A stretch of 41,419 nucleotides of DNA, from the NCBI GenBank assembly GCA_035945995.1, contig DASYZR010000056.1:1-41419 (forward strand), read 5' to 3'. Below the pieces are notes generated by a model. The model was not told the DNA's origin. It did no database searches and worked only from the letters and a program-made list of their open reading frames with translations. The position numbers were made by a program, and so were the translations under genes. Shown piece by piece: positions 13,078 to 15,384 of the stretch. The stretch comes from a bacterium. GTDB taxonomy: Bacteria; Sysuimicrobiota; Sysuimicrobiia; Sysuimicrobiales; Segetimicrobiaceae. Numbering within the stretch: position 1 is the first letter of the stretch; each line of letters opens with the position of its first letter.

Positions 13078-14106
13078 ATGCAGGGACAGCCGCTCGACGA
13101 AGCGCGAGCCCACGGCTTTGCCACCCCGCCCCCGCGCGCCGTCTCGTGCCCCATCGCCGACATGCACACGCACATGACCGACCCGGCGACGAATCACGAG
13201 CTCCTCGAGGCCGCGCGCCGCTACGGCGTCACGCGCGTCGTCGCGATCACCCCGCTCGACGACGGGCTCGCGCTGCAGCGCCGCTATCCTGGGGAGATCG
13301 AAGTGGCGGCCCGGGCCCTCGTGACGGCACCGGCGGGCGCCGCGGCCGGCGGACCGGGCCGGCCGCCGGAAGACCGCACGCTCGAGATGATCCCGCGGGC
13401 CCACGCCGCCGGCGTGCGGATCATCAAGTTCTGGTTCGCGCCGCGCATTCGTGACCGGCTGGACTTCCTGCTCGATTCGCCGCGGCTCGACGGGGTGTTC
13501 CGGGCGATCGCCGAGCACGGCCTCGGAGTGCTGGTGCATGTGAGCGATCCGGATCGTTGGTTCGCGCACAAATACCCCCCCGCCAAGTACGGCACGAAGG
13601 CCGACCAGTATCCGATGCTGGAGCGCCGGCTGCGGGACTTTCCCACGGTACCGTTTCTGGCCGCGCACATGGGCGGCGACCCCGAGCATCTCGACCACCT
13701 CGCCGAGCTGCTGACGCGGCATCCGAATCTCTACCTCGACACGAGCGCGACGAAATGGATCGTGCGTGAGCTGGGCCGGCAGCGGGAGGCCGCGCGGGAG
13801 TTCTTCCGGCGCTGGGCGCACCGGATCTGTTTCGGCACCGACCAGGTCGTCCTGAAAGATCCCGATCCCGTGCGGTACCTCGTCCGGTACTGGGTCCACC
13901 AGATGTTCTGGGAGACGGATCTCGTCTGCCCGTCGCCGATCCCCGACCCGGACGCCGACGGAACGCCGATGCTACGGGGGCTCGATCTTCCGGGGGATGT
14001 CCTCGAGCAGATCTACTGGAAAACCGCCGGGCGGGCGTTTACGATCAACGCCCGCCCGACAGTTCATTTGGGCCTGGAACCCGGAACCGGAACCGCTAAC
14101 GGATGA
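13078..14106 (+). CDS. Amidohydrolase-2 family metal-dependent hydrolase
   Basis: A 342-residue TIM-barrel hydrolase or decarboxylase of the PF04909 type. The metal-binding DMHTHM (Asp28, His30, His32), a mid-protein His in GVLVHVSD, AAHMGGDPEHLD and the late FGTDQ Asp follow the family order. AGGAG lies eight bases before the ATG. A segment around WETDLVCPSPIP is unusual and may shape the substrate pocket. The substrate is unknown. Its 3' end overlaps an antisense small ORF by 11 bp and contains a strong hairpin. Confidence 0.85.
   Translation: MQGQPLDEARAHGFATPPPRAVSCPIADMHTHMTDPATNHELLEAARRYGVTRVVAITPLDDGLALQRRYPGEIEVAARALVTAPAGAAAGGPGRPPEDRTLEMIPRAHAAGVRIIKFWFAPRIRDRLDFLLDSPRLDGVFRAIAEHGLGVLVHVSDPDRWFAHKYPPAKYGTKADQYPMLERRLRDFPTVPFLAAHMGGDPEHLDHLAELLTRHPNLYLDTSATKWIVRELGRQREAAREFFRRWAHRICFGTDQVVLKDPDPVRYLVRYWVHQMFWETDLVCPSPIPDPDADGTPMLRGLDLPGDVLEQIYWKTAGRAFTINARPTVHLGLEPGTGTANG
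14020..14058 (-). terminator. 12-bp hairpin with short T-run
   Basis: CGGGCGGGCGTT (14028-14039) pairs perfectly with AACGCCCGCCCG (14047-14058) around a 7-nt loop. On the minus strand it is followed by GCGGTTTT, so it fits a terminator for the small membrane ORF at 14096-14167, embedded in the last codons of the amidohydrolase. On the plus strand no T-run follows. Confidence 0.6.
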
Positions 14107-14167
14107 TCAGGTGTCCGGTGGCCCAGAGCGCCAGACCGATAAGCAACAGCAATCCGGCCAGCAGCAT
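14096..14167 (-). CDS. 23-residue single-span membrane peptide
   Basis: A very short gene found by its signals. A near-consensus promoter (14203-14231) is followed by AGGAGGTGG, eight bases of spacing from AGGAGG, an ATG and 23 codons ending in TAG. Nearly the whole product is hydrophobic (Leu/Ile/Ala/Gly, one Trp) and ends in HLIIR, so it should be one membrane helix. A terminator-like hairpin follows at 14020-14058. The sequence does not match KdpF or another named small protein that I recognise. Function unknown; it could be a regulator or stabiliser of a membrane partner. Confidence 0.6.
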   Translation of the reverse strand: MLLAGLLLLIGLALWATGHLIIR

Positions 14168-14202
14168 CCCTTCCACCTCCTGTTCATCCCGAACTTCGTT
14201 CC

Positions 14203-14231
14203 TATATATGCCCCGCGCGCCGCTCGGTCAA
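14203..14231 (-). promoter_or_regulatory. Promoter for the 23-residue peptide
   Basis: Minus-strand -35 TTGACC (14226-14231), 17-bp spacer and -10 TATATA (14203-14208). Among the best promoter matches in the window. Predicted start near 14196 gives a leader of about 28 nt that holds the Shine-Dalgarno site. It lies between the small ORF and the stop of the DUF4189 gene. Confidence 0.7.
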
Positions 14232-14252
14232 ACCCGCGCCGGCCGCCGGGGC

Positions 14253-14750
14253 CTACGAGTGATCGCCGCCGCTATTTTGCCGGTACATGTTGGCGTCGCA
14301 GATCGAACCCGCAATCTTGCAATACGACGCGCGGTCGCCCGCCGTGTCATGGCACTTCTGCAGGGCCTGAGTTTCCGCCGCCTTCTTGACGTCGGCCACC
14401 GCCCATCCCACGCCGGGGGTCCCCTTCGCGGGATCTATCGCGACCGCGGCGCATTGCTCGTGAAGCGTCTGGATCACCTTGCAGGCCGCTTTCGCGGAGT
14501 CGGACGCGCCCTTCGCCGTCTGGCAGCTCTTGAGCGCCCTGCTGGACGCCTGATCGGTGGTGGACAAGTCGCCCACCATGCCGTAGGCGAACCCCTGCGT
14601 TGCCACGTCGGCGGGTTGACCGACCGCGATCGCCCCTTCGGCGCTCGCGGCACTCGGCCACACCGCGGCGGCCGCGGAGACCGACGTCAGGAGGGCCGCC
14701 GCTACGAGCACGGCTCCTCCGGCCTGGCCCATCGAACGACGCTCTCGCAT
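14253..14750 (-). CDS. Secreted DUF4189-domain protein
   Basis: A 165-residue protein with a Sec signal peptide (basic MRERR start, hydrophobic GGAVLVAAALLTSVSAAAA, probable cleavage near ASA). The mature part matches DUF4189: GAIAVGQPADVATQGFAYG, repeated small-residue stretches and about six cysteines (CQ, CKV, QCAAVAI, KCHD, YCKI, ICDA) that could form disulfides outside the membrane. GGAGGTGG lies just before the ATG at 14750. The domain occurs in secreted proteins of mycobacteria and xanthomonads and has no known activity. Confidence 0.75.
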   Translation of the reverse strand: MRERRSMGQAGGAVLVAAALLTSVSAAAAVWPSAASAEGAIAVGQPADVATQGFAYGMVGDLSTTDQASSRALKSCQTAKGASDSAKAACKVIQTLHEQCAAVAIDPAKGTPGVGWAVADVKKAAETQALQKCHDTAGDRASYCKIAGSICDANMYRQNSGGDHS

Positions 14751-14951: not shown

Positions 14952-15242
14952 CTAGTCGATCGCCTTCTCGACGTCCTCCCGGGTCAGCGTCTCCCCCAGT
15001 TCCGCCGACCACCGCAGCACGGCCGCGATCACGTCGTCGCGCGACATCCCGAGGGTCGACGTCATCTCCTGCACGCACATCTCCACGACATACTCGAGAC
15101 GGCCGCTCCACCCGGCGTCCTTCGCTTCCGCGATCAACGACACGACGACGCCGGCGAGCAGCGGCTCCGCCCACTCCCGACGTTCGGCCTGGACCTCAGG
15201 GGACACCGCGGCCCCTGTTCCCGGCCCCGATTGGTTGTCCAC
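14952..15242 (-). CDS. Hypothetical helical protein
   Basis: A 96-residue soluble protein with no family I recognise. The body (AEPLLAGVVVSLIAEAKDAG onward) looks all-helical and ends LTREDVEKAID. The start is taken as GTG 15242 because GGAGGTG lies six bases upstream; a TTG at 15257 overlaps that site. It sits between dacF and the DUF4189 gene on the same strand, with tandem hairpins downstream. Codon use is like its neighbours, which supports a real gene. Confidence 0.6.
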   Translation of the reverse strand: MDNQSGPGTGAAVSPEVQAERREWAEPLLAGVVVSLIAEAKDAGWSGRLEYVVEMCVQEMTSTLGMSRDDVIAAVLRWSAELGETLTREDVEKAID

Positions 15243-15384
15243 ACCGCACCTCCACAACGTAGCCCCCGCGGCACTCGCGCGCCGCGCGGCGGCGGAGCGC
15301 CGTCACAGAGCGCCGCGACCTGATCGCCTTCTGTACCGTACGCGGGGCTTCCTGCGCCGCGGCGTTGCGTGCGCCGCCGCGGCG

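Follow-up and report, generated by a model that had tools for sequence, protein, structure and literature searches.

The window considered here is a stretch of 41,419 nucleotides from contig DASYZR010000056.1 of a Segetimicrobiaceae genome. Its minus strand carries a small peptide gene unit spanning 14233–14020, in which the elements, from promoter-like boxes to hairpin, follow one another in order (Table 1). The initial annotation of this region had described a Shine–Dalgarno (SD) sequence, an ATG, 23 hydrophobic codons and a TAG, and each of these is found on the minus strand. The 12-bp hairpin with TTTT described downstream is likewise present: flanking A-U and G-U pairs lengthen its stem to 19 pairs, the TTTT follows at 14023–14020, and the 80 nt 3′ of the TAG fold with an energy of −43.8 kcal/mol (z = −4.55 versus shuffles). 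The surrounding gap had been described as apparently empty, which is not fully the case. An amidohydrolase reading frame on the plus strand reaches 14106, such that the final 11 nt of the peptide ORF and the entire hairpin overlap the 3′ end of this convergent gene. Because the hairpin lies inside the amidohydrolase coding sequence, its conservation is not creditable to the peptide alone. An Rfam scan of the window matched no family, and a tRNA/tmRNA scan found no gene.

Table 1. Features of the peptide locus and its neighbours in the window
Feature	Coordinates	Strand	Basis
Micropeptide ORF MLLAGLLLLIGLALWATGHLIIR, 23 aa	14096–14167	minus	ATG 14167–14165, TAG 14098–14096; intact orthologues; family profile
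Shine–Dalgarno sequence AGGAGGTGG	14173–14181	minus	Sequence; AGGAGGTG kept in 8/8 syntenic orthologues
Probable sigma-B/F-type promoter, GTTTGA (14233–14228)-N14-GGGCAT (14213–14208)	14208–14233	minus	Sequence; motif common to paralogues
Terminator-like hairpin with U-rich 3′ arm	14021–14065	minus	Perfect 12-bp GC stem, 14058–14028; about 19 pairs in total
Amidohydrolase (Amidohydro_2), convergent to the peptide	13078–14106	plus	PF04909, E 3.6e-16
Secreted DUF4189 protein; gene upstream of the peptide, with c8 on its far side	14253–14750	minus	Gene neighbourhood comparison
Orphan protein of about 96–101 aa, cluster c8	14952–15257	minus	Conserved neighbour of the peptide in most relatives

The neighbourhood of the peptide is partly variable. 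Among the genomes examined, the DUF4189 gene occupies its position only in the window's own genus. The orphan c8 protein, for which Pfam gave nothing above cut-off, bears a conserved VSLIAEAKDAGWSGRLEYVVEMCVQEMTS block. In two relatives (G008 and G010) the peptide sits away from the amidohydrolase, which is elsewhere, and remains linked to the c8 gene and the carboxypeptidase gene (PF00768) upstream of it; the amidohydrolase locus itself is without the peptide in G003 and G008. Genomes from other families of the order (G013 L043, G014 L044 and G034 L045) have, downstream of the amidohydrolase and on its strand, a gene for another small membrane protein.

Relatives of the locus were sought by comparing the surrounding DNA with 41 genomes and the amidohydrolase protein with 61. 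The peptide occurs at the same position in eight genomes from four genera, with the SD kept throughout and the start codon replaced by GTG in one orthologue (G006). Stops and frameshifts in close relatives, which the initial annotation had named as evidence against a gene, were sought among these eight syntenic orthologues, and none was found. Their consensus reads M[LVF]LA[GA][LI]L[LAV]L[IVL]G[LI]ALWATGHLI[IL]R. Pooled over the eight, pN/pS is 0.22 in the peptide frame and 0.43 to 6.95 in the other five frames, four of which exceed 1 and two of which contain stops in most sequences. By this comparison of sequences, the ORF is conserved under purifying selection that is specific to its reading frame. 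Short hydrophobic ORFs are common, and an untranslated chance ORF on a hairpin-rich strand had to be considered on that account; conservation across genera refutes it for practical purposes, and frame-specific selection, dozens of paralogues, the SD and the promoter all stand against it as well. Eight intact syntenic orthologues and these paralogues lend strong support to the proposal that this is a complete transcription unit encoding an unrecognised membrane peptide of 23 residues.

The peptide has sister copies, in a multicopy family confined to one lineage; this had escaped the initial annotation, as had the position of the hairpin within the neighbour's coding sequence. Genomes were searched with a profile of the orthologues and then with a profile of 38 members; starts were assigned by SD, and only copies with a readable start were counted. 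Every one of the 12 genomes of Ca. Segetimicrobiaceae (family f1), a family of uncultured soil bacteria, has such copies: 67 in total, which amount to 57 distinct peptides. Copy number ranges from 3 to 13 per genome, with 6 in the window's genome (G000), 9 in G001, 13 in G004 and 3–8 in the others, a few weak matches included. Most members are 19–23 aa long; the single 16-aa copy probably has a misassigned start. Members combine a hydrophobic, uncharged N-terminal part (a charged residue anywhere in positions 2–10 occurs in just 5 of the 57 distinct peptides) with an almost invariant C-terminus, [A]TGH[LM][IL]x[R/Q/H]. The T and the G of the TGH motif are present in 57/57 distinct peptides and the H in 56/57, and the last residue is R in 47, H in 5 and Q in 5. 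The window peptide conforms to the family definition (19–23 aa, hydrophobic N-terminal part, TGH[LM]xx[RQH] directly followed by the stop codon) and matches the family profile with E-values of 3e-12 to 1e-7. Other locus groups are under similar purifying selection, with pN/pS of 0.04–0.22. A strong hairpin 3′ of the stop, defined as one equalled by at most 1 of 30 shuffles, accompanies 28 of the 67 copies.

The genes next to the copies are diverse. Upstream genes are on the same strand in 37 cases and divergent in 29, downstream genes on the same strand in 40 and convergent in 25, and tRNA or tmRNA genes did not emerge as a common theme of the copies' loci. With neighbours and orientations thus mixed, most copies appear to be independent units. 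Tandem pairs of two different members, about 200–260 nt apart, occur in four genomes (G007:C92, G009:C97, G005:C90 and G004:C80); a strong hairpin follows the first member, and the second precedes the gene for a secreted TPR protein by 77–171 nt, start to start. An attenuation or operon arrangement is possible at these sites. The diversity of neighbours also bears on the idea that the peptide serves, like KdpF or CydX, as a small accessory subunit in a single large membrane complex. A single helix with one almost invariant motif does suggest one conserved partner surface; however, the copies do not lie beside a common membrane complex, and KdpF, CydX and other curated families went unmatched above cut-off, which makes such a subunit improbable. 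Still less probable, indeed very unlikely, is a role as precursor of a hydrophobic, secreted pheromone conserved at its C-terminus, akin to the SHP peptides of Rgg systems. The length of 20–23 residues and the conserved C-terminal stretch with its small paralogue-specific differences would suit a pheromone, but the lack of N-terminal positive charge together with the C-terminal Arg predicts the opposite topology, with the C-terminus inside, and no peptide-sensing regulator recurs among the copies' neighbours.

Searches beyond family f1 gave nothing convincing. The order's 31 other genomes had no family match at E ≤ 0.02, and 343 more distant genomes gave no convincing one; three matches there were marginal (E 0.003–0.02), and the sole one examined, in G221, was rejected as not being a family-like ORF. 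In a scan of 84,980 species, each represented by one genome, a strict coding pattern returned 15 matches, 15/15 of them in Segetimicrobiaceae metagenome-assembled genomes (MAGs) labelled either Terrabacteria group bacterium ANGP1 or Centralia MAGs assigned to Bacillota. ANGP1 is Ca. Segetimicrobium, of the phylum Ca. Sysuimicrobiota, and several of the 15 matches are family f1 genomes of our own set (G005 and G007–G011). At the group B locus, the full-length neighbour was not found outside family f1. Phages, plasmids and viral contigs gave no match, so the peptide is not a recognised mobile or phage gene. The initial annotation did not recognise the peptide, and neither do the databases: Pfam, NCBIfam and PDB offer no family that it matches above a curated cut-off. 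PHROGs sets no such cut-offs; there, phrog_22548, a family of unknown function, is matched by 10 of 38 members with a best E of 0.00027, and the window peptide is not one of them. A sub-threshold Pfam resemblance to Bombesin (E about 0.02), in which LWATGHLI (14128–14105, minus strand) recalls the core WAVGHLM, was set aside as almost certainly chance.

Copies at unrelated loci share an upstream motif, GTTTG[GA]CC-N12/13-GGG[TA]AAAAT, mostly ending 27–63 nt before the start codon. The motif was seeded by eye, then refined and tested by leave-out; in its refined form it reaches a leave-out p ≤ 0.04 in 36 of 67 copies, against 2.7 expected. Across 372 kb, 46 hits score at least 15 bits, and 42 of these fall immediately before a member, some overlapping alignments of a single site included; the shared motif GTTTGACC-N12-GGGTAAAAT scores 20.5 bits at the window copy. 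The strict pattern GTTTGRCC-N12..13-GGGTAWAAT has no genome match, because real sites vary; with a looser pattern, 6 of 11 matches in family f1 are at a member. The motif has the layout of the Bacillus subtilis sigma-B consensus, GTTTAA-N14-GGGTAT, for which a spacing of 14 is reported to be apparently optimal (PMC9847131). In an independent test, the published sigma-B core, GTTT-N15..18-GGG[TA]A, stands upstream of 23 of the 67 copies and of 0 of 277 other genes; these 23 copies come from 5 of 25 locus groups, orthologues are not independent, so that the P value is only nominal, and the other 44 copies are without the strict core. The window copy itself, with GGGCA in place of the strict [TA] form, has the relaxed core GTTT-N16-GGG, and in the window's genome the GTTT/GGG spacing is found in only two of six copies, C56 and C30.

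These boxes overlap the sigma-70 promoter originally read at this site, TTGACC (14231–14226) and TATATA (14208–14203) separated by 17 nt. The bases are indeed present; the sigma-70 reading is probably wrong, and we rejected it, since a strict sigma-70 scan found no promoter on either strand of the window, in a phylum whose promoters are uncharacterised, and the GTTT/GGG reading is common to the paralogues. Judged by its sequence, the window promoter thus probably fits the sigma-B/F class better than sigma-70. A further element occurs in group C (L113, L114, L116, L121, L125, L128 and L133), in which a conserved TTCACAACATTCAC-like box lies about 75–95 nt before the start, suggesting a second regulatory input. 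Since group C has a different upstream box, inputs would differ between copies. The box is a possible direct repeat, and most group C copies end in Gln.

The window's genome encodes a candidate regulator for this promoter class. At another locus (L213, contig C43), genes for YtxH, an RsbW-like protein and a SigBFG factor lie in a row. The SigBFG factor scores 283.7 bits against TIGR02980, above the cut-off of 234.35, and the RsbW-like protein has a HATPase_c_2 domain and matches RsbW models below their own cut-offs. In G003 the motif recurs ahead of the sigB operon start, with a score of 20.3 bits. In the window's genome GTTACT-N15-GGGTAT, a weak site of 11.2 bits, stands before ytxH; sites before sigB operons are consistent with autoregulation. 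The arrangement resembles the Bacillus sigma-B regulon in promoter core and spacing, in the placement of SigBFG beside RsbW and in the YtxH/DUF948 genes beside the sigma gene, but differs in its −35 element, here mainly GTTTGG or GTTTGA, and its −10 element, GGGTAAAA. Two group C copies (L116 and L121) are each convergent to the gene for a protein of one cluster. The L121 protein combines PAS, GAF, SpoIIE phosphatase, HATPase_c_2 and STAS domains, so that a single polypeptide holds a whole partner-switch module, and at L116 a relative occupies the same place. SigBFG relatives above cut-off are also encoded in some other families of the order that are without the peptide; having the sigma factor is therefore not enough to predict the peptide. 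To our knowledge, the micropeptide family is absent from known sigma-B regulons.

The main rival to a stress-induced regulator is a type I toxin-like peptide, that is, a membrane-depolarising, stress-expressed peptide restrained by an antisense RNA, as are Ibs, ShoB and TisB. Type I toxins such as IbsC (19 aa) and ShoB (26 aa) span a similar length (PMC8309996). Like the family described here, IbsC, ShoB, LdrD and TisB are short hydrophobic helices, mostly with C-terminal positive charges and some of them multicopy, so that size, hydrophobicity, a positive C-terminus and many copies per genome all match, and the tandem pairs in four genomes are in keeping with a toxin as well. Against this, the C-terminal motif is almost invariant, compared with type I toxins described as without sequence conservation (PMC8309996). 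Orthologues and most paralogues have very strong, exposed SDs near the start, which is atypical of silenced toxins, and individual loci are stable, being kept across genera under purifying selection. No antisense RNA was found by Rfam or by the strict sigma-70 scan of both strands, the latter in a phylum of uncharacterised promoters. We therefore consider a toxin unlikely, and of the two possibilities originally offered, a small membrane regulator or a toxin-like peptide, the evidence leans toward the former, in the form of a stress-induced membrane regulator.

Two described peptides illustrate what such a regulator may look like. Prli42 is a membrane miniprotein of the Listeria stressosome, an anchor acting upstream of sigma-B. 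Compared by description, and with no evident sequence relation, it too is a membrane miniprotein tied to the sigma-B stress response; unlike Prli42, the peptides here look like downstream targets. YohP of E. coli is 27 aa long, stress-linked and oriented C-in/N-out, and lowers membrane potential and metabolism (PMC7549839, PMC12719787). By analogy, YohP is the closest work-alike, unrelated in sequence, and homology is not claimed: both are tiny single-helix membrane peptides with a stress link and a C-in/N-out orientation, shown for YohP and predicted here. In contrast to the dispersed family in Segetimicrobiaceae, YohP is encoded by one gene, in E. coli, which is not a sigma-B bacterium. We know of no TGH motif in YohP.

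Together, these observations make it reasonably probable, as judged from sequence, that the window holds a real micropeptide gene of a Segetimicrobiaceae-specific multicopy family, switched by a sigma-B/F-type factor and encoding a single membrane helix that tunes a membrane partner or state under stress. Stress would activate the lineage's SigB-like factor, which would in turn switch on the peptide genes, whose strong SDs would drive peptide synthesis. The 23-mer would insert as one membrane helix, N-terminus out and C-terminus in, a topology predicted because the N-terminal part is uncharged and the last residue is Arg, Gln or His. The TGH motif would then sit at the cytoplasmic interface, and a Gly/Ala stripe spaced by seven, with Gly at C-terminal positions −6 and −13, may pack against itself or against a membrane protein, whereby the membrane partner or the membrane state would be tuned for survival, a mode of action also proposed for YohP. 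With several paralogues, each under its own promoter, the family would be able to respond to different stress inputs. In this model the genetic parts alone are read directly from the sequence; expression, topology, partner and stress role we infer. We give an even chance to a broader proposal: that these peptides of 19–23 aa form a multicopy family, not described before, of effectors that span the membrane once and are under the control of a general-stress sigma factor, and that the TGH motif lets each paralogue connect its own stress input to one shared membrane target.

The original observation was right and understated, and requires correction only in the promoter class and in the description of the gap as empty. 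Gene callers miss proteins of this length, so that whole families of them go unseen. Here, a gap that looked empty led to a peptide family with 57 distinct members, fixed across a whole bacterial family; its motif is nearly invariant, and a regulator in common is predicted for it. The find is probably a lineage-restricted version of a known kind, stress-induced membrane micropeptides. It suggests that membrane micropeptides can be numerous in the general-stress regulons of uncultured bacteria, and the TGH motif and the promoter offer concrete handles on how micropeptides may protect or silence membranes under stress.
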